Assembly (NCBI RefSeq): GCF_900100185.1
Contig: NZ_FNEN01000008.1
Coordinates: forward strand, 1-64,000
Length of the DNA: 64,000 nt
Source: Natribacillus halophilus
Lineage (GTDB): Bacteria > Bacillota > Bacilli > Bacillales > Marinococcaceae
Reading direction: 5' to 3'
Part shown: in pieces, positions 34,837 to 44,517 of the stretch
How the letters are laid out: the number at the start of each line of letters is the position of its first letter
Position numbering within the stretch: position 1 is the first letter of the stretch
Notes under the pieces: generated by a model
The model's input: only the letters and a program-made list of their open reading frames with translations
Told to the model about the DNA's origin: nothing
The model's database searches: none
Translations under genes and position numbers: made by a program

Positions 34837-35057
34837 TTGGATTCTCCTTACCGGGGTTGTTCAAAAATGAAGGATTGAGGAGGGATTTTGCATTGAGTGT
34901 ATTATAGCATAAATGGGTAAATTACCACATTAAATCGGTTCCACTTTTGCAAATTAATACCGGATGAAATCTGGCTTATCACCCTGCATATTTGCACATT
35001 ATTCCCGTTTTGCACGCTATTTCGGTTCGCCTTTTCACATTATTCCAGCGGAATAAA

Positions 35058-35093
35058 GGAAAGCAAACACCCCTTCGCTTCACAAGGGGTGTT
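35058..35093 (-). terminator. Hairpin downstream of the 89-residue ORF
   Basis: AACACCCCTT (35066-35075) pairs perfectly with AAGGGGTGTT (35084-35093). On the minus strand it is followed by TGCTTTCCTTTATT, a modest U-tract, so it likely ends the two-gene transcript of the candidate element. Confidence 0.6.
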
Positions 35094-35135
35094 CGTTCGT
35101 GTATGATGCTTCCTAAAGAGACACTACAGCCGGGT

Positions 35136-35405
35136 TCAAAAGGGAAGGTTTTCATCCGGAATATCCGGAAAAAACAGGGTGCTTTCGTCTAAACGAATGC
35201 GATAAACTTCCGAACAACTAAGGTTAAACCGAACACCTCCGAGGAAGACATGCCATACCGAATCTTTCCAAAGGTTAACTTCATAAAAATGGCCATGAAT
35301 CCGGAGGTCAAACGGCATGCTGAATTGCATCACGTGTGTGTCTTGGTCGACCCGAACGACCCATTGTTCGTCAAAGGGAGACCAAATCATGTATCCGTAT
35401 TCCAT
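35136..35405 (-). CDS. Hypothetical protein, possibly DUF5348-like
   Basis: The 89-residue soluble protein is rich in aromatic residues and predicted beta strands (MIWSPFDEQWVVRVDQDTHV; then LWKDSVWHVFLGGVRF). Its layout resembles small DUF5348-type proteins, but I cannot confirm this. AGGAGGGCGCCTG precedes ATG 35405, a strong ribosome site. It lies downstream of the DUF6431-like gene inside the candidate mobile element and is probably co-transcribed with it. No catalytic motif is visible. Confidence 0.6.
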   Translation of the reverse strand: MEYGYMIWSPFDEQWVVRVDQDTHVMQFSMPFDLRIHGHFYEVNLWKDSVWHVFLGGVRFNLSCSEVYRIRLDESTLFFPDIPDENLPF

Positions 35406-35520
35406 CAGGCGCCCTCCTGTTCAACCACCGATCGCTCCCCCGGGTGTATACGCAAACGTTATGTGGGGTGGCCAAAAATATCATTCGGCTAGATAGCCCT
35501 GCCGAAAGATTGTGATTATG

Positions 35521-36048
35521 TTATACTGGGGGTGCCATAAAATAGCTTGATAAATGACCCTTTGACCTTCTTAGGAAGGTGGATTCTCCAAAATCTCGGA
35601 TCATTGTCAGGTATTTTGTGGCATTTTTATTTTCGCACGGAAAGGAAACGGAAACCCCGTGATCCGTGAAGAAGCTGTGCAACCACTTGAGATGCTTAAG
35701 AAACCGTCGCTTATAAAAGGCCACGAGCTGGCGAAATCCTGACCCTTTTTCCTTTTGGAGAACGGTTGCTATTCGATCGACGACCGTATGTAACGTGTGC
35801 TGGTAATAGGGGATCAAGAAGTCCGGTAAAATAGAGAACGTCTTCTTACAAGACGGACAGCGCAGCCGACAAATCGGGATGTACTCGGCTCCCTCCTCAG
35901 TAATCCCGTAGCGCCAATAAAACCCGTGCCGATGAAGGGTATTAATGGAAGAGCAAGCAGGACAGGAATGAAAGGTGGGGAAATCATTGGCCGGACCTTT
36001 TTCGGCATACGTTTTCAAGTCCGCTCCAAAATCGTGAAACAAAATCAT
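35521..36048 (-). CDS. DUF6431-like zinc-ribbon protein
   Basis: The 175-residue protein has two CxxC knuckles, Cys29-x2-Cys32 (SCPACSS) and Cys64-x2-Cys67 (RCPSCKK), with HRHGFY between them. This resembles the zinc ribbon of many transposases. The sequence CKKTFSILPDFLIPYYQHTL and a basic helical region follow (about 80-130). I recall this pattern as DUF6431, a family seen beside transposition genes in Bacillaceae. No DDE or tyrosine-recombinase catalytic motif is present, so it may be a DNA-binding accessory or a shortened transposase. GGAAGGA lies seven bases before ATG 36048. Confidence 0.7.
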   Translation of the reverse strand: MILFHDFGADLKTYAEKGPANDFPTFHSCPACSSINTLHRHGFYWRYGITEEGAEYIPICRLRCPSCKKTFSILPDFLIPYYQHTLHTVVDRIATVLQKEKGSGFRQLVAFYKRRFLKHLKWLHSFFTDHGVSVSFPCENKNATKYLTMIRDFGESTFLRRSKGHLSSYFMAPPV

Positions 36049-36253
36049 AAAAAAATCCTTCCGAAATAATCTGCTTAAACTTTAGCACATTATTCCAGAA
36101 GAATTCACTTCCCGATCTGAAATAATTTGAAAATATAGTGGGGTTTTGTACGGGAATAATGTGATCGGTTACAACACTACAATATGGACCTTTCAAAACA
36201 CTGGGTCAGTTAAAGTTCGAAAGTTTATATAGGGGAATGTACCAACCATATAT

Positions 36254-36532
36254 TTAATCAGGTATGATTGCATTAGTAACCATTTCCCATTCATAAATCT
36301 CAAAGTCTCTAGCTTTTTCATTTATTAAAGGATCTTCTGTAACCATATTTCGCACTTCTTCTTCTGAATTAGCCATATAAATCACCATTCCTCCGCTTCC
36401 ATCCAAAAACTTGCCATTTGCAAAAACTTTTTTTTCCTTTCGTTTTTGAGACAAAAAATCCAAGTGTTGTTGTCTATACTCCTCACTCTTTTGAGGATCT
36501 AACATTTTTAAAAAAACTACATATGATTTCAT
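36254..36532 (-). CDS. YciI-like protein
   Basis: This 92-residue protein fits the YciI ferredoxin-like fold: MKSYVVFLKMLDPQKSEEYRQQHLDFL, then GKFLDGSGGMVIYMANSEEEV and DPLINEKARDFEIYEW. Conserved His23 and the Asp near residue 44 occupy the usual active-site-like positions. Relatives include muconolactone isomerase-like and dechlorinating enzymes, so a role in the adjacent catabolic pathway is possible. GGGAGG precedes ATG 36532. It is the last gene of the AT-rich cluster running from 43 to 36 kb. Confidence 0.8.
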   Translation of the reverse strand: MKSYVVFLKMLDPQKSEEYRQQHLDFLSQKRKEKKVFANGKFLDGSGGMVIYMANSEEEVRNMVTEDPLINEKARDFEIYEWEMVTNAIIPD

Positions 36533-36611
36533 GAGCTAAACCTCCCTAGTTGTTTGCAGCCTAAACAGTTGTCTCTATAATGATCATTTTAGCCAAAAAA
36601 ATTTCAGGGGT

Positions 36612-37589
36612 TTATGGTTGTAATACAATCTTCACATGGTCCTTATCCTCACTAAAATCTTTCATGGCTTGATCTACCTGGTCCAAAGAATAGGAGGCAG
36701 TAATTAGTGATTTTATATCAAAAACACCTTGAATAACTGGACGCATCAAGTAGGGAACCCATCGTTTCAAATACTCTGGTCCATGGTGCATAACAGCACT
36801 AAATCGAATATCAATAGCATGGTGATGTAGCCGATGTAGATTAACTTTTATAGGCGACATAATATCAGGAATTGAATTCATAATCCCTTCGTCTCGTGTA
36901 AGATCAATGCATATATCGAAATATTCTTCAGTGTAGGGGTTCCAATATCCACAGGAATGATAAGTAACGTCAGCACCATGTCCACTTGTTATTTCGAATA
37001 CTTCTTTACGAACATCATTTACAGTAGAATTAATAGCGATATCTGCTCCGAGTTGTTCAGCTAATTGCAAATGTGCATCTGAATAATCAATAGCAATAAC
37101 TTTATCTGCGCCTCTTTTTTTGAGTCCTTGAACTGCAATTAACCCTTGGTAATTCAACCCTGCCACCAAAACCGTATCACCTAGTTGAACACCACTTTGA
37201 AATACACCATAGACTCCTACACATGTAGGCTCTCCCAAACTAGCAATTTCCATGTCCAATCCATAAGGAATCTTAAATAGATTCTGCTCTTTACCTTTGA
37301 AATATTCGGCGAAGGTGTTGAGAGGACCAAATCCCATTACCTTATCTCCAACGACAAATTCTTTTACTTTCGTACCCACCTCAACAACTTCACCGCCTCC
37401 TTCATGGCCAATATATGCAAAACTAGGAAGGTCATCAGGCATAAACATCCCTGACCATGCTCTCAGATCAGCATCACAAATAGAGGCTTGGGTGGTCTTA
37501 ACTAATACCTCGTCATCTTCTATCACAAGATTTCTGTTGATAGTTTTAAGCTGATGTTTTCCAGCTAAATAAATACTTTTATTTTGCAT
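36612..37589 (-). CDS. Medium-chain (zinc-type) alcohol dehydrogenase family protein
   Basis: From ATG 37589, behind GAAAGGGGATGG, the product has 325 residues. The GroES-like domain shows QASICDADLRAWSGM and YIGHEGGGEVVEVG, the catalytic-zinc region with Cys and His-Glu. The four-cysteine structural zinc loop of typical members is absent. The cofactor site reads VLVAGLNYQGLIAVQGLKK instead of GxGxxG, an unusual variant. Threonine, sorbitol or sugar-acid dehydrogenases are relatives. It overlaps the preceding dehydrogenase gene by eleven bases, so both act in one pathway, substrate unknown. Confidence 0.85.
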   Translation of the reverse strand: MQNKSIYLAGKHQLKTINRNLVIEDDEVLVKTTQASICDADLRAWSGMFMPDDLPSFAYIGHEGGGEVVEVGTKVKEFVVGDKVMGFGPLNTFAEYFKGKEQNLFKIPYGLDMEIASLGEPTCVGVYGVFQSGVQLGDTVLVAGLNYQGLIAVQGLKKRGADKVIAIDYSDAHLQLAEQLGADIAINSTVNDVRKEVFEITSGHGADVTYHSCGYWNPYTEEYFDICIDLTRDEGIMNSIPDIMSPIKVNLHRLHHHAIDIRFSAVMHHGPEYLKRWVPYLMRPVIQGVFDIKSLITASYSLDQVDQAMKDFSEDKDHVKIVLQP

Positions 37590-38508
37590 AGTTCCATCCC
37601 CTTTCAGGATTCTTTGAATCATCCTTAGTTACCAGTAGGTCTCCCAATTCTTCATATATTTTGACTAATGTTGAAGAATCTTCTTGATCAAGATTCTTTG
37701 CATCAGCTAGTTTGTATATTTCTTTACAGGCACTTCCCAAAAAGAGTGGCACTTGCAATTGGTTTCCTGTGTGAATACAAATATCAAGATCTTTCTTTTG
37801 AATATCCAATGAGCTCCGTGGTAAAAAATCTCGTTCCAATATACCTGGAACCTTATCTTCAAACATCCAAGAATTCCCTGCGCTATCTTTCACAACATCG
37901 TAAATCAACTCAGGATCAAGACCACCTTTCACACCTAATGCTAGGGCTTCAGCCATAGCGACAAGATGAATGGAAACAAGGTGTTGATTTACTGCCTTGA
38001 TAGCCTGACCCAATCCGATCTCATCTCCGACTTTGCGAACGTTGCTTCCCACAACATGTAACACTGGTAGACAAAAATCATATAGTTCTTTTTTTCCAGC
38101 TACCATTAATGTCAGGCTTCCTGATTCAGCTCCCTTGACTCCCCCACTAACAGGGGAATCAAGTACCTCTATACCTTTTTTAGAGCAAATACCCTCTATC
38201 TCACGAACTTCATCAGGAGCAATTGTACTTGTAACAATAATTGCACCATCTTCCATCCCTTGCATGATACCATCATTACCAGTTAAACAACTTTCACATT
38301 GCGAAAAGTTTTGCACCATCAAAAAAACAATATGTGCACTTGCTCCAACTTCTCTTGGACTATTAGTTTTTCTTGCCCCATAACGCTCTAGTTCATCCAT
38401 GGGGTGCGGATTAATATCAAACACACTTAACTCATACCCAGCTTCCACTAGGTTTTTTGCCATATTAAATCCGATAGATCCTAGACCCACAACGCCAACT
38501 TTTTGCAT
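37579..38508 (-). CDS. 3-hydroxyisobutyrate dehydrogenase-family oxidoreductase
   Basis: The 309-residue protein has the beta-hydroxyacid dehydrogenase layout. The NAD-binding motif GVVGLGSIGFNMAKNL is at residues 4-19, the substrate site DSPVSGGVKGAESGSLTLMV near 115-135, and the catalytic Lys is in GLGQAIKAVNQHLVSIH near residue 170. Family members oxidise 3-hydroxyisobutyrate, tartronate semialdehyde, L-threonate and similar hydroxyacids. TRAP transporter neighbours suggest a carboxylic acid substrate. TAGAGGTGACTAAG precedes ATG 38508. Confidence 0.92.
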   Translation of the reverse strand: MQKVGVVGLGSIGFNMAKNLVEAGYELSVFDINPHPMDELERYGARKTNSPREVGASAHIVFLMVQNFSQCESCLTGNDGIMQGMEDGAIIVTSTIAPDEVREIEGICSKKGIEVLDSPVSGGVKGAESGSLTLMVAGKKELYDFCLPVLHVVGSNVRKVGDEIGLGQAIKAVNQHLVSIHLVAMAEALALGVKGGLDPELIYDVVKDSAGNSWMFEDKVPGILERDFLPRSSLDIQKKDLDICIHTGNQLQVPLFLGSACKEIYKLADAKNLDQEDSSTLVKIYEELGDLLVTKDDSKNPERGWNYAK

Positions 38509-38570
38509 ATCTTAGTCACCTCTATATATTATGGAGAAATTAACTTCTGAACCCTTGGTAATCGAATATT

Positions 38571-39056
38571 TTATATGGTACTTTTTGGTACAGTTTGAAT
38601 GAATCCTGTTTCACTATCATTTTCACGGCTCAAAATCATATCTTCACCCTCAACAATAATGACCTCCAACGTGTTTAAAACAGTACAATATCCACGCTCA
38701 ATATGCCCCCCAAATACTTTCTGATTTTTATCGACCATTACAGCGTGTAAATGGATAAATATATCGCCGTCTTGATCACAAATTAACCCCTGTCCACTTA
38801 ACAATTCTACAGGACCTTCCACATCCATTTTCCCCGTAAAGCTAGCTCCTGTTTTTGATGTAGGATCTGGTTCAATGCACATAAATTGTGCGTTCTGAAA
38901 ACTACCAATCATACTTGCAATTCCTCCTGCTTTGATTCCGTGTTTCTGACAAGCATCAATTAATCCCTGTACGGCGTCACTACCTGGTAGCACTCGTACA
39001 GCAATCATTCGCTTAGATGTTCCTTCCGTTGACCAAATGCGATTATTCTTTTCCAT
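38571..39056 (-). CDS. PPC/DUF296-domain protein
   Basis: The 161-residue single-domain protein matches PPC (DUF296): RMIAVRVLPGSDAVQGLIDACQ, GIASMIGSFQNAQFM, and DIFIHLHAVMVDKNQKVFGGHIERGYC with the conserved histidines. In plants the domain occurs in AT-hook DNA-binding proteins; in bacteria stand-alone versions form trimers of unclear function and often sit in catabolic clusters. AGAGGAGG precedes ATG 39056. It lies between the SDR and hydroxyacid dehydrogenase genes. Confidence 0.88.
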   Translation of the reverse strand: MEKNNRIWSTEGTSKRMIAVRVLPGSDAVQGLIDACQKHGIKAGGIASMIGSFQNAQFMCIEPDPTSKTGASFTGKMDVEGPVELLSGQGLICDQDGDIFIHLHAVMVDKNQKVFGGHIERGYCTVLNTLEVIIVEGEDMILSRENDSETGFIQTVPKSTI

Positions 39057-39081
39057 TATATTATTCCTCCTCTAAAATTAA

Positions 39082-39843
39082 TTACTTTTGTACTAGACCG
39101 ACTGTTGTAATTCCGCCGTCCACAGCAATTGTTTCTCCCGTAATAAAATTTGATTTAGCTGATGCTAAAAAGAGGACGGTATTGGCAATATCCTCGGGTT
39201 CCCCAATTCTTTGTATAGGAATTGTATTTGCTACCTGCGCTTCATGTTCATCAACCCAAGATGAGCTTAGTCGAGTCCGACATGGTCCCGGAGCAACTAC
39301 ATTTGCTGTAATACCATATTCACCTGATTCTTTGGCTGTCGCTTTCGTAAATCCAACAATTCCTGCCTTACTTGCTGCGTAATGTGAAGTCCCGACAAAT
39401 CCTCCCCCAGACATCGCTGCTATCGAAGAAACATTTACAACCCTTCCAAAATGTTGTTTTTTCATAACTGGCAGTACATGCTTCGTACACAAGTACGGAC
39501 CTCTCAAGTTAACATTTAGCATCAAATTCCAGTCATCAATTGAAATCTTCTCAAGCGGCTCCCTTTGAGTAATTCCCGCACAATTAACTAGAATATCCAC
39601 CCCCCCATATTTATCCAATGATTTCTCAACCATTATCTTTACACTCTCCTCGTCCAATACGTTAACATGGACATAAAACGCTTCTTTGGCTTTTTTCTTC
39701 AATTCTTTTTCAAGTTTCAAACCTTGTTCACGATCTACATCCGCAACAATGATAGTCGAACCTGCGTTAGCTAACTGAATTGCAATTTCCTTCCCTAGAC
39801 CCGAGGCTGCACCAGTGACAACTGCTATTTTCCTTTCCACCAT
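39082..39843 (-). CDS. SDR-family oxidoreductase (FabG-like)
   Basis: This classical 253-residue short-chain dehydrogenase has TGAASGLGKEIA (cofactor), VNCAG, and the catalytic set Ser in NVSSIAAMSGGG, Tyr-x3-Lys in SHYAASKAG, with the PG motif after it and a C-terminal IAVDGGITTVG. It oxidises or reduces a hydroxyl/keto group with NAD(P). GAGGAGG precedes ATG 39843. It follows the TRAP genes in the same direction, so the first step for the imported substrate could be its oxidation here. Confidence 0.92.
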   Translation of the reverse strand: MVERKIAVVTGAASGLGKEIAIQLANAGSTIIVADVDREQGLKLEKELKKKAKEAFYVHVNVLDEESVKIMVEKSLDKYGGVDILVNCAGITQREPLEKISIDDWNLMLNVNLRGPYLCTKHVLPVMKKQHFGRVVNVSSIAAMSGGGFVGTSHYAASKAGIVGFTKATAKESGEYGITANVVAPGPCRTRLSSSWVDEHEAQVANTIPIQRIGEPEDIANTVLFLASAKSNFITGETIAVDGGITTVGLVQK

Positions 39844-39957
39844 TTGTAGTTACCTCCTCTTCGAATGTAATTTTTCATTGTTTATGATAATTCCGCTTCC
39901 AAAACCTCCCTCAATATAATAAGATTTTCTCCAACATACTCGTTGTTCCTCAAAATT

Positions 39958-40443
39958 TCATGGGTTTCTGATGGAAGCTGCCTCTTTTTCTCTTTTTAAA
40001 TCACCAAAGCGAATAAATACTACAGTAATTATTAACAAGCCACATAAGGGTATCGATAAATACCAATAAGAGCGTGGCCACTGTAAAATAGGTGAGGATT
40101 GGAATTGACCTTGTTGAAATAACTCCCATCCCCCAATAATGAATACTAGGCATACAATTATTGCGCTCACTGAAATCACCAATTGTCGCACAAATTTTAT
40201 CCAGACTCTCATTCGGTCTTCATTAAATAGATTGAGTGAAATGTGTTCTTTATCAAAAAACGCAACAGCTGCACCTAAAAAAATCATCCATACAGTTGAA
40301 AATTGAATCACTTCATCAGTCCAAGAAATACTGATCCCAAAGAATCTTGTAATAATACTCAACAACAGTAATACTCCTATAAGAATCAAGAGGATGAGAC
40401 ATATCACCCTAGATCCCTGAATAACCCCTTTTAAAATTTTCAT
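39958..40443 (-). CDS. TRAP transporter small permease (DctQ)
   Basis: The 161-residue protein has four hydrophobic helices and the DctQ landmark SWTDEVIQFSTVWMIFLGAAVAF (conserved WxxE-like region). It pairs with the large permease 40474-41763. TRAP systems import carboxylates or related acids in symport with sodium. TTTGGAGG precedes ATG 40443. Confidence 0.9.
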   Translation of the reverse strand: MKILKGVIQGSRVICLILLILIGVLLLLSIITRFFGISISWTDEVIQFSTVWMIFLGAAVAFFDKEHISLNLFNEDRMRVWIKFVRQLVISVSAIIVCLVFIIGGWELFQQGQFQSSPILQWPRSYWYLSIPLCGLLIITVVFIRFGDLKREKEAASIRNP

Positions 40444-40473
40444 AATGTAACCTCCAAAATATAAAAAGAATAG

Positions 40474-41763
40474 TTACCTAAATAGCTCGGGAAGAAACAT
40501 CACAATTTCAGGCTGCCACAATAATGCAATAAAGACCAATAAAAGAGCAGCATAGAAAGGGATACACTGTTTCGCTAAGGACATAATAGGAATACGAGTT
40601 ATATCTGATATTGGAAAAAGAACCATTCCTACTGGTGGAGTAATTAAACCAATTGACAATACAACCGTCACTATAATGCCAAAGAAAAGAGGATCAATTC
40701 CTGCCTGCTGAACTATAGGCATAACAATCGGAACCGTTAGTACTAATATAGCAATTGATTCCATAAATGTTCCCAAAATTAAATACATAAGGCACAGTAT
40801 CAACAGTATTCCGATAGCTGAATCGGTAACATTGAGAAGGAGATCTGTAAATGCGTTCGTCACACCAAAATAAGTAAGAACCCAACCAAAGAGATCAGCA
40901 GCCCCTACAATAAACATCACTTTAACTGTAAACAGAAATGTTTCATTCATCGCTTCAAGGAATTTCTTTAGATTTAATGTACGGTAAACTACGAATCCAA
41001 TGAATAACGAATAGGCAGCTGCCACAATCGCTGTTTCAGTTGCTGTAAATACCCCGGATAAAATCCCTCCTATTAGAATCACTGGGGTCAAGAGGCCCGG
41101 GAGAGATTTCATACCTGTACGAAAGAATTGCTGGAGATTGGGAAGGGTAGATGTTCTGTAATTACGAACCCTAGCGGTAATATATACAACGATAAACATA
41201 CTTATCCCAATTAAAAGACCTGGGACAATCCCACCGATAAACAGTTGAGTGATAGATATTCCTGTCATAGAACCGTAGATAATCAAGGGAATACTTGGAG
41301 GAATAATTGGGGCTACAATCGAACTGGAAGCTGTAACTGCAGCTGCAAAACCTCGATCATAACCTACTCTTTCCATCACTCTAGTTTGAATCAACCCAAG
41401 CCCTGAAGCATCTGCTACAGCAGATCCAGACATACCCCCAAAGACGACACTGGTCAAAACACACGCATTTCCCATCCCACCTCTAAATCGCCCAATAATA
41501 TATTCAACGAATTTAAACAAGATGTCTGTTATACCACTCTTATTCATAACAATTCCTGTCATTATGAAAAAAGGAATAGCTAATAACTGAAAGGAGACAA
41601 GGCCACTGTATATTCGCTGCGGAATCGTGCTTATAATTTCTAACCCCGAAGTGCCAATTACCAAACCCAACGTCCCACTTAAAATCATTGAAAACGCTAC
41701 AGGTACACCTATAATTAATAGAATAAACAATAAAACAATAACAAAAATACCTATTTCAAGCAT
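40474..41763 (-). CDS. TRAP transporter large permease (DctM)
   Basis: Starting at ATG 41763 behind AGAGGGAGAG, the product has 429 residues and about 11-12 helices. DctM motifs include GVPVAFSMILSGTLGL at the N terminus, FGGMSGSAVADASGLG near residue 90, ASSSIVAPIIPPSIPLIIYG near 140, and ITPPVGMVLFPISDI near the C terminus. It is the sodium-coupled channel of the TRAP system. A TTG at 41784 is a less likely start. A gene-sized gap to dctP (41785-41904) holds no ORF. Confidence 0.95.
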   Translation of the reverse strand: MLEIGIFVIVLLFILLIIGVPVAFSMILSGTLGLVIGTSGLEIISTIPQRIYSGLVSFQLLAIPFFIMTGIVMNKSGITDILFKFVEYIIGRFRGGMGNACVLTSVVFGGMSGSAVADASGLGLIQTRVMERVGYDRGFAAAVTASSSIVAPIIPPSIPLIIYGSMTGISITQLFIGGIVPGLLIGISMFIVVYITARVRNYRTSTLPNLQQFFRTGMKSLPGLLTPVILIGGILSGVFTATETAIVAAAYSLFIGFVVYRTLNLKKFLEAMNETFLFTVKVMFIVGAADLFGWVLTYFGVTNAFTDLLLNVTDSAIGILLILCLMYLILGTFMESIAILVLTVPIVMPIVQQAGIDPLFFGIIVTVVLSIGLITPPVGMVLFPISDITRIPIMSLAKQCIPFYAALLLVFIALLWQPEIVMFLPELFR

Positions 41764-41904
41764 TCTCTCCCTCTTTTCACCCAAAGTATCTCACCAATTC
41801 TATGCATAAATTTTAAGCTACTATCCGATGATTTTGGAACTATCTCATCGGATAGCAAACATAGACATTGGAGATATACCTAAAATTAAAGGCTGATATT
41901 CTTT

Positions 41905-42933
41905 TTAATTAGCACTTTCTTCAACTACTTCCAACCAATTTTCGACGAAATCTTCTCCGGCAAATTCAGCAATCTCATTCCAGGCCGGTTCCATTTCTTG
42001 TTCAAAATCTCCAGCGTCCACATAGTTTATTTCTACTCCTTCTGCTTCCATATTTTCAGCAGCTTCATCCATCGTTTGACCAACTTCTTCTCGATTAAAA
42101 TCTCTAGCTTCTTCACTTGCTTGTTTTAATATTTCCCTCTCTTCATCATTCATTCCTTCCCATAAATCCAAATTAACAATATGGGGAAAACTTGAATACA
42201 TATACCCTTCTCCCATTACAGTGATATAATCTTGCACCTCATGAAAAGCATTAGTATATATATAATGGAGAGGATTTTCTTGTCCATCTATAACACCTTG
42301 TGAAAGTGACATATACAATTCTCCAAATGAAACTTGCTCGGGAACAGCACCTAATGAAGTCATAGCTGCTTCCATGGTCACTTCAGGAGGCACTCTAATT
42401 TGCACTCCTTCCATATCTTCAGGGGTTTCAATTGGATTATGGTTGTTACTAATGACCCTGAATCCTAATTCCCATTGTGATAAAATCTCGAAGTTCTCCT
42501 CTCTAGCTAATTCATACAACATATCGCCTCCCTCACCATCTAGAGTGTTGTAAGCGTGTTCAGTATCTTCAAACAAAAAAGGCAATTGAACTGCTGCAAA
42601 TTCTGGAACCCACTGTGTCATTTGCCCACTAGCTGCAATCGACATGTCTATACTGCCCATTCGAACCTGTTCCGCAACTTCTTCTGGTTCCCCTAATTGA
42701 TTGTCAGGGAAAACATCGATAGTAATTTGACCATCCGATAATTCTTCTACTCGTTCTGCATAGAATTCCGCTGCACTATGTGTGGGGTCATCCATAGATG
42801 CCACATGGGAAAGACGTAATGTTTTTTCATCTATCCCCTCATCTCCATTTGATTCAGATGCTGTTTCCTGCCCGCACCCAATTAATAAACTCATAAACAA
42901 CATCATAGTTAAGCAGTTTAGTTTTATTTTCAT
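41905..42933 (-). CDS. TRAP transporter substrate-binding lipoprotein (DctP)
   Basis: The 342-residue protein begins with a lipoprotein signal ending LLIGCGQ (Cys20 lipidated). The DctP fold shows LRLSHVASMDDPTHSAAEFY, GSIDMSIAASGQMTQWVPEF, the conserved Arg in EGVQIRVPPEVTMEAA that binds the substrate carboxylate, and LYMSLSQGVIDGQENPLHYI. Mature sequence is acidic, as in salt-tolerant bacteria. GAGGAGG precedes ATG 42933. It is the first gene of the catabolic cluster, behind the operator at 43302-43318. Confidence 0.95.
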   Translation of the reverse strand: MKIKLNCLTMMLFMSLLIGCGQETASESNGDEGIDEKTLRLSHVASMDDPTHSAAEFYAERVEELSDGQITIDVFPDNQLGEPEEVAEQVRMGSIDMSIAASGQMTQWVPEFAAVQLPFLFEDTEHAYNTLDGEGGDMLYELAREENFEILSQWELGFRVISNNHNPIETPEDMEGVQIRVPPEVTMEAAMTSLGAVPEQVSFGELYMSLSQGVIDGQENPLHYIYTNAFHEVQDYITVMGEGYMYSSFPHIVNLDLWEGMNDEEREILKQASEEARDFNREEVGQTMDEAAENMEAEGVEINYVDAGDFEQEMEPAWNEIAEFAGEDFVENWLEVVEESAN

Positions 42934-43866
42934 TCTTCTAATCCTCCTCGAATTATTTTACTGCCAACCTTTGTCAAGGCGTATGGGACACAGTATTCTC
43001 GGAAATACCTTCAGTGCTCTATGGTCATTAGCTGCATATAAATGTGCCAACAGTAATTGTTGATAAGAGAGCCAAGTCTTCTGCTGTATAGAGGCTTTTT
43101 TAAAAGTCAAAATCTAATATTCCCCAAGTTTGTCATTTTAGAAAGGGTTTTCATTTTCGTGTTCATCTAAAGCCTCATTTCTTACCTGCTAAACCACCCC
43201 CATCCTCCAAAAGTGTTGTAAATTTAAATTGCAAAGTAAACAATTACATTTTACAACTCTCCAAAGAAATGATTCATCTTGAGTTTAACGTTAAACGTAT
43301 TTGTATGCAATGTATACAATGTATGTGAAAGTATATATCGTAATCAATTTATGGTCAAGGTATTTTTCAAAATAATTTTTTATAATGCTCAGCGTAAGGG
43401 AAAACCTAAAAAACAGACGCTTCGTGACAGTGACACCCTTTGAAAGATGATAAGGATGTTTCAAGCGTCATGTTTGTTCCCTTAATGAGAATTTTTATAG
43501 CAATTTCTAATCTTCAAGATCTAAATTTTTTGACTTATACCTGATTCCATGGCAAGTGAAACTGGATGAACCATTTTGATTAAATTACAAATTTGATGAC
43601 GATAAAACCGAAAGAGCGGAAGGGCTAAACGGTTATTGCCCTAAAAAACAACACAAATAATCATCGAACAATCAAGGGGAATAAACGGTCACATATGTTG
43701 GTATTTTAGTATACAAAATAAACCGGCCATTTTGCCATTTATAAAAAATTCTTCCGATCTTTCTTTTTACATGTTAGCAGATGCTCAGCCTGGGCAAACG
43801 TATTGTAAAGTCTGCGAAACAACGGCAGCCAATGATCGTCACGGATTTTTTCAAAAGTCAAGGAGC
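42934..43866. other. 930-bp AT-rich stretch without a recognised gene
   Basis: This holds the promoter region of the TRAP cluster, the operator at 43302-43318, a 14-bp perfect palindrome GTTTAACGTTAAAC (43283-43296), and GACGCTT/AAGCGTC (about 43417 and 43470) enclosing 40-50 bp. The part 43560-43860 contains short open pieces with CxxC codons (for example CKVCETTAANDRHGF) that may be degraded gene remains. I could not assign them. Confidence 0.5.
43302..43318. promoter_or_regulatory. Probable GntR operator at the TRAP cluster promoter
   Basis: TGTATGCAATGTATACA is an imperfect palindrome that differs only in the two central bases from the site upstream of the GntR gene (44539-44555). The perfect palindrome GTTTAACGTTAAAC lies 5 bp upstream. 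Position about 370 bp before dctP implies a long leader or an undetected promoter. Confidence 0.7.
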
Positions 43867-44517
43867 CTATTGCTTAGAATGCAACGCATTATTTTTAATA
43901 TAAGCTGCCCCGTTACGAATATGATTTACCATTAATTGTTCTGCTAATTCTCCATCTCTTGCTTCAAGAGCGTCTAATATTGAAGCATGTTCTTGGTGAG
44001 TAATCTCAGGTGAGCGAAGTAATCCTATTTTAAATTGAACACTAAAAACATGAGTAGTATTAAAACTTTTTTCGAGAATTGGGTTGTTAGCAATTTCCAC
44101 TAACTTCGAGTGAAAAATCATATCTGCTTCAAAATACTTATCTTCTCCATTTTCTCCCCATCTCAAATACGCATCATCAAATAATGCTCTCAAATAAGCA
44201 ATAGTCGGAGAATCCATCTTATCTGCACATATTCGACAAGCTAAACCCTCTAAAACTGCACGAACCTCCCATACAGAATGAATAAAATCACTGTTAATTT
44301 CTCTTACAAATATACCTTGTCCTGTTATCTCTAATAAAAAATCTCTTTCAAGGTTTATAATAGCTTGGCGTAAAGGTGTTCTACTTACCCCTATTTGTTC
44401 AGCGAGCTGGTCTTGAACAATTTTTTCCCCACTTTTAATATCACCATTTAAAATTAACTCTCTTATCTTATTATACGCTATCTGTTCTAAATGACTGTTT
44501 CCCATTAATCTGGCCAA
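43867..44517 (-). CDS. GntR-family regulator, FadR/FCD type
   Basis: The 216-residue protein has an N-terminal winged helix (IAYNKIRELILNGDIKSGEKI followed by LAEQIGVSRTPLRQAIINL) and an FCD effector domain (about 80-210) with the metal-ligand pattern Asp/His (DMIFHSKLVEIANNPIL and later HQEHASILDALEARD). FCD regulators usually bind organic acids. TTG 44517 follows GGTGAT at good spacing; ATG 44505 is an alternative. It precedes the TRAP cluster in the same direction, separated by 930 bp, and probably controls it and itself. Confidence 0.92.
   Translation of the reverse strand: MARLMGNSHLEQIAYNKIRELILNGDIKSGEKIVQDQLAEQIGVSRTPLRQAIINLERDFLLEITGQGIFVREINSDFIHSVWEVRAVLEGLACRICADKMDSPTIAYLRALFDDAYLRWGENGEDKYFEADMIFHSKLVEIANNPILEKSFNTTHVFSVQFKIGLLRSPEITHQEHASILDALEARDGELAEQLMVNHIRNGAAYIKNNALHSKQ

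Follow-up and report, generated by a model that had tools for sequence, protein, structure and literature searches.

A probable internally deleted copy of a DUF6431-DDE-AAA-DUF5348 transposon, most likely a non-mobile fossil, in Natribacillus halophilus

We analyzed a 64,000-nucleotide stretch of the Natribacillus halophilus genome, referred to here as the window, and found that the locus at 34916 to 36173 (minus strand, 1258 bp) is very probably an internally deleted copy of a transposon with the gene order DUF6431-DDE-AAA-DUF5348, most likely one that survives as a non-mobile fossil. This reading is built on the gene content and termini of the relatives, the target duplications that flank most of them, an end motif common to them and the window locus, homology to a relative's spacer that stops abruptly inside the locus, and the lack of any detectable DDE or AAA gene in the genome. 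The window copy is itself ordinary, a gutted transposon. Its value is that it points to a well-defined transposon family of the Bacillales, whose genes follow a fixed order, whose ends carry several sites and TGT/ACA tips, and whose target duplications are mostly 7 bp long.

A DUF6431 protein scan of genomes returned five loci, all from Heyndrickxia sporothermodurans. Four of these chromosomal copies were complete (3.2 kb) and nearly identical, and one was shortened to 2.5 kb; outside the 3.2-kb unit, the loci had no sequence in common. The Heyndrickxia element L023 codes for a DUF6431 protein of 146 aa (the 3′ part of its gene matches in another frame only), a transposase of 420 aa with rve and Mu C-terminal (PF09299) domains, an AAA_22 ATPase of 266 aa, and a DUF5348 protein of 86 aa. 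The same four-gene order was found on plasmids of Metabacillus and Sporosarcina, and the family extends to other Bacillales. It includes a Geobacillus-like version, represented on three Geobacillus plasmids, in which the first three genes are present and no DUF5348 match was detected. The plasmid records that we examined are annotated gene by gene. Across the order, 37 of the 397 genomes sampled, including that of N. halophilus, contained a DUF6431 match at an E value of ≤0.001. We compiled 41 loci from the best places of this order-wide search together with plasmid hits H1 to H5, G026, G023, G044, and Heyndrickxia. Plasmid hit H6 and the weaker or additional places of that search are not part of this set, and one locus (L022, identical to L062) was counted twice. 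A DDE gene lay beside DUF6431 in 35 of the 41 loci (28/30 plus 7/11). The other six were cut by a contig end (L074), were fragments (L080, L090, and L091), or consisted of left parts only (L085 and L087). Phage records yielded no match. Among viral contigs, no relative was found with a single-sequence query, one distant DUF6431-DDE locus (L122) was detected with an alignment, and no AAA relative was found.

We then compared the termini of the complete elements. All 23 complete relatives with both flanks available, including the Geobacillus-like L083, L084, L086, and L088, have TGT...ACA tips. Excluded from this set were L064, L075, and L079, whose contigs end at the element, the interrupted or truncated L026, L066, L076, L077, and L082, the contig-edge loci L073, L074, and L089, and L062, which equals L022. 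Perfect target duplications flank 17 of the 23 elements (15 of 7 bp and 2 of 6 bp), and they are distributed as 15/16 among the DUF5348-bearing copies versus 2/7 among the Geobacillus-like ones. The elements with no 6- to 7-bp duplication (6/23) are L058, L078, L083, L084, L086, and L088, the last having one of 5 bp. A target duplication is also absent from L066, a copy that is interrupted by another element and continues in L142. The distance from the DUF6431 ATG to the terminus is 123 to 127 nt in the relatives, 151 to 152 nt in the Geobacillus plasmid copies, and 125 nt in the window.

The end motif is shared by these elements and the window locus. The preliminary description had reported copies of CACATTATTCC, with an outer pair at 34994/36165 and weaker relatives farther left. 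Exact copies are located at 34995 (+), 35036 (+), 36086 (+), and 36153 (−). These four are the only ones in the whole 3.30-Mb genome, all inside 34995 to 36163, and a reversed control pattern occurs twice. When 3 mismatches were allowed, the count showed no window-wide excess (182 observed versus 198 expected), and therefore only near-exact copies are informative. We also built a weight matrix of 13 positions from nine elements outside the window, which together contributed 17 terminal sites. At a cutoff of ≥9 bits, which we picked ourselves, the model placed 8 sites inside 34916 to 36173, where 0.16 were expected, and 8 sites in the other 62.7 kb of the window. The four top-ranked sites of the window were the four exact CACATTATTCC copies. 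CACATTATTCC is therefore the end repeat of the parent transposon family. By analogy with Mu/Tn7-type transposons, this repeat would be bound by the transposase. Related elements carry ends of this type together with full transposase genes, an association that the preliminary description had proposed to look for.

The element ends were set by the distance to the DUF6431 ATG and, on the other side, by alignment with intact elements and with a relic in the related genome G016. The DUF6431-side end (36049 to 36173, minus strand) has its terminus, TGTAACCGATCACATTATTCCCG, at 36173, and this starts 125 nt ahead of the ATG, exactly as in Heyndrickxia. It contains model sites from 36151, 36117, 36086, and 36061 (18.6, 13.0, 19.6, and 12.7 bits, respectively). 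The DUF5348-side end (34916 to 35048, minus strand) contains sites at 35036 (19.6 bits), 35013 (weak, 8.3 bits), 34995 (18.6 bits), and 34926 (14.4 bits). Compared by eye, their order and spacing match those of intact elements out to 34916, and the alignment of the G016 relic ends no more than one base away from this position. A left terminus at 34985 (TGCATATTTG-CACATTATTCC) was also considered and was dropped, since the site spacing and the G016 relic favor 34916. The previously reported motif copies are real, but the outer pair does not mark the left terminus; the weaker relatives farther left are part of the true left end, which reaches 34916. At that terminus the window reads GGTAAATTAC-CACATTAAATC where intact elements have TGTAA.... 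TGT is kept at 36173 and replaced by GGT at 34916. No target duplication was found for either candidate left end (the flanks are ATAAATG versus ACACTAC for 34916 to 36173). This absence is weak evidence of decay, because 6 of the 23 complete relatives and L066 also lack one of 6 to 7 bp. Nor do the 29 genomes of the family supply an empty allele for comparison: no further member of the genus is included, and the neighboring recQ shows only 53 to 56% identity across the 18 additional genomes in which most of it is matched (about 582 to 592 of 711 residues). ACACT lies outside the DUF6431-side tip in both the G026 element (L006:1924-1928) and the window (36174 to 36178), while the other flanks differ; this common flank may reflect chance or a shared target preference.

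Two genes are retained between the ends. The first (35521 to 36048, minus strand) is an intact open reading frame (ORF) for a DUF6431 zinc-ribbon protein of 175 aa, which matches PF20020 in Pfam (E value of 3.8e-12). This protein is 51 to 58% identical to the DUF6431 proteins of 11 relatives and 34 to 37% identical to those of 3 others (Geobacillus), and cysteines C29, C32, C64, and C67 are invariant in 15/15 aligned proteins. The second (35136 to 35405, minus strand) codes for a DUF5348-type protein of 89 aa, corresponding to the fourth gene of the parent element. A two-sequence BLASTP aligned this protein with the Heyndrickxia DUF5348 at 28% identity (E value of 2e-10). By itself the window protein reached no Pfam family, and 5 of the 12 aligned members of its group match PF17295. 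A terminator-like hairpin follows the last gene (35064 to 35095, minus strand; −20.1 kcal/mol, z score of −3.85), in agreement with the earlier description of a zinc-ribbon gene, an 89-residue gene, and a terminator. AlphaFold was run on shallow alignments (3 rows for DUF6431 and 2 rows for DUF5348). The DUF5348 model had a pLDDT of 45, and the weak DUF6431 model (mean pLDDT of 62.6) retrieved no PDB entry at an E value of ≤0.001 with Foldseek. Since these models are too weak, we make no fold claim for either protein.

To define what is missing, we compared the locus with the related genome G026, where the element runs from DUF6431 through a spacer to the DDE gene. The G026 copy is itself damaged: a stretch of about 1.7 kb of IS-looking DNA has been inserted into its DUF6431 gene, and its DDE match ends near residue 260 and contains stop codons. 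Element positions 1 to 412 are 80% identical to G026 and positions 418 to 728 are 82% identical, the match ending within the spacer at window position 35446. The segment from 35446 to 35520 (minus strand) is a remnant of the DUF6431-DDE spacer of the relatives, where the motif model also places an end-like site inside the element, at 35502 (13.4 bits), and the deletion junction is likely to lie between 35445 and 35446. The element measures 1258 bp and its relatives 3094 to 3248 bp; relative to a length of about 3245 bp, about 2 kb is gone. The 41 bases past the junction (35405 to 35445, minus strand) contain one frame, ...ERSVVEQEGA*, that ends at TGATG, where its stop codon overlaps the start codon of the next gene, the last one. 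Compared by eye with the ATPase end of L064, ...VRLAIEDGGL*, which also stops at TGATG, 3/10 residues are identical; this possible AAA ATPase tail of about 10 to 13 codons is weak evidence alone. The relic in G016 is more informative on this point. It includes a decayed homologue of the last gene of the window copy (two pieces, with 61% and 53% identity), and at L153:3771-4340 a decayed ATPase C-terminus (E value of 5.6e-4 in a four-locus search) lies just upstream of this DUF5348 homologue, followed by an end of the same lineage. Since the last gene of the window lineage also followed an ATPase, the window would have lost both the DDE and the AAA gene. The missing part would comprise the DDE transposase and nearly all of the AAA ATPase gene. 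The genes neighboring the G016 relic, named by eye, are acyl-CoA dehydrogenase-like and peptide-transporter-like.

We also searched the N. halophilus genome for the missing partners. A DDE query gave no match there at an E value of ≤1, and the same search matched 4/4 expected genomes (G026 with an E value of 7e-106, and G130, G145, and G191 below 1e-200). An AAA query, which has no positive control and misses the decayed G016 remnant, gave no match in this genome either. Decayed partners, or partners located in gaps of the 47-contig assembly, could escape these searches. Only 115 bp separate the two ORFs, and the genome gave no DDE or AAA match; the window copy is therefore a derivative and not an intact member of the family. 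The preliminary description had considered the locus as a possible non-autonomous mobile-element unit, which agrees with the multi-copy ends and with the absence of DDE and AAA genes between the first and the last gene. Besides the window copy, the genome showed just one further trace, a 57-bp relic of the DUF6431-side end at C4:932-988 (L152), which is 93% identical; multiple copies with target duplications were not found. This relic also adjoins a catabolic cluster, with GntR-like, DHDPS-like, two enolase-superfamily-like, and cupin-like genes (assigned by eye).

The window copy is probably immobile, because its partner was not found and one terminus is mutated. It had been suggested instead that the unit could be mobilized in trans. 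In such a scenario, the locus would be a still mobile, MITE-like passenger that full elements of other strains or of incoming plasmids could move, which fits the largely preserved end arrays and the occurrence of full elements on Bacillales plasmids. The suggestion is nevertheless unsupported and we consider it improbable: the genome has a single copy besides the 57-bp relic and no DDE or AAA gene was found in it, the TGT/ACA tip is lost on the DUF5348 side, there is no target duplication, and none of the 41 related loci has the compact form, that is, DUF6431 and DUF5348 with no DDE gene between them.

Against the fossil reading, neither ORF is disrupted and both have credible ribosome-binding sites; they were possibly kept for a function. 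The two proteins could have been retained for a host or anti-transposon role, such as repression or immunity through binding to the end sites. Consistent with this idea, the terminator-like hairpin is preserved and dN/dS for DUF6431 against G026 is below 1 (0.25/1.09 = 0.23 in one piece and 0.18/0.40 = 0.45 in the other), values that could reflect selection acting either earlier or later than the deletion. However, the G016 and G026 relics are decayed, and DNA matches to the element occur in only 3 of the 29 genomes of the family (its own, G026, and G016), so there is no sign of lasting selection. We give a retained function little credence. A bolder version, in which DUF6431 is the target selector of the family in place of TniQ/TnsD and the window pair, with both end arrays, has been domesticated to bind the ends and to block or steer full elements that arrive, appears equally doubtful. 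No TniQ match to DUF6431 was obtained by Pfam, NCBIfam, or PDB sequence searches.

The preliminary description had also raised the prospect of a self-contained system of a new type. In this reading, which fits the presence of only two genes between the ends, DUF6431 would act as its own recombinase. This is contradicted by the relatives, where a DDE gene accompanies DUF6431 in all loci other than the six fragmentary, truncated, or contig-cut ones, and by the spacer of the window, which breaks where the transposase gene would come next. Moreover, DUF6431 passed none of the curated cutoffs for catalytic families (Pfam and NCBIfam), and its best match among PDB chains was no better than an E value of 0.12. 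We regard this proposal as extremely improbable; the locus is most likely instead an internal-deletion derivative of a 3.1- to 3.25-kb element.

According to our model, the DDE transposase of the intact element would bind the tips of the element (TGT/ACA) together with the CAC-TTAT-TCC repeats present at either end. The element would insert with a mostly 7-bp stagger, helped by the MuB/ExeA-like ATPase for target capture. DUF6431, with its zinc ribbon and C-terminal part, and DUF5348 would play accessory roles, perhaps in targeting or assembly. In N. halophilus, a deletion of about 2 kb probably joined the DUF6431-DDE spacer to the sequence immediately preceding the last gene, taking away the transposase and the ATPase and leaving the first gene, the last gene, and both end arrays.

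With the parent family, the window copy has in common the end motif, the terminus distance, and homologous first and last genes, and its spacer is as in G026. It differs in having no DDE gene, no AAA gene, and no target duplication, and in its mutated terminus. Among known systems, IS481 is close with respect to the transposase, since that of the parent element L023 scores 223.3 bits against NF033577, just below the cutoff of 224. TGT/ACA tips are also present in IS481, as described in PMC11406308. Unlike IS481, the parent family adds an AAA ATPase, DUF6431, often DUF5348, subterminal site arrays, and mostly 7-bp duplications, and the window element has no transposase gene at all. The preliminary description had also pointed to a Tn7/IS21-like relation, and the related elements are indeed DDE/AAA elements (Mu/Tn7/IS21-like) with like ends. 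Their resemblance to Mu/Tn7-like systems (TnsB-TnsC and TniA-TniB) lies in a DDE protein with a Mu C-terminal domain, a MuB-like AAA protein, and several sites per end. The parent transposase matches TnsB in the PDB with an E value of 7e-6, and the ATPase matches PHROG 296, "DNA transposition protein" (E value of 6.6e-21), and the target DNA activator B in the PDB (E value of 0.016). According to PMC11406308, the duplications of Tn7-like elements are 5 bp, in contrast to the mostly 7 bp of the parent family. Domain-profile searches detected no TnsA or TniQ among the four parent proteins. The parent family may also be comparable to Tn552. The transposase-plus-ATPase logic also resembles that of IS21 (istA/istB). 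However, the parent ATPase reached only an E value of 0.13 against the IstB model and the transposase 63.5 bits against an IS21 cutoff of 160, and no IstA/IstB pair is present in the window element.

In the literature searched, whose coverage was incomplete, we found no description of the four-gene family as a unit, and an earlier description or an ISfinder name may exist. No report on DUF5348 was found there, and DUF6431 has reportedly been linked to a study of sialic acid use in Ruminococcus gnavus. Placing these two domains of unknown function among the accessory genes of a DDE-plus-AAA transposon of the Mu/IS481-like type gives them a context in which their roles can be tested directly.

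Some additional features of the locus and its relatives were noted. An AT-rich catabolic island (36254 to 44517) abuts the relic in the window and carries genes for a YciI-like protein, a zinc alcohol dehydrogenase, a hydroxyisobutyrate-type dehydrogenase, a PCC-domain protein, an SDR, a TRAP transporter (DctQ/M/P), and a GntR-FCD regulator. Before the DDE start of the parent elements lies a palindromic box (L023:5623-5638 and equivalents), GGATGACCGGTCGTCC, exact in 7 of 12 elements and variant in 5; this possible regulatory site is lost from the window copy. In all three loci of genome G098 (L066, L076, and L077), the DDE gene of the parent element is broken at codon 223/224. The insert in L066 (L066:3877-7369) is a 3.49-kb unit with inverted ends and three tyrosine-recombinase-like genes (323, 410, and 383 aa, assigned by eye), which we take to resemble a site-specific, Tn554-type element that targets the transposase gene.
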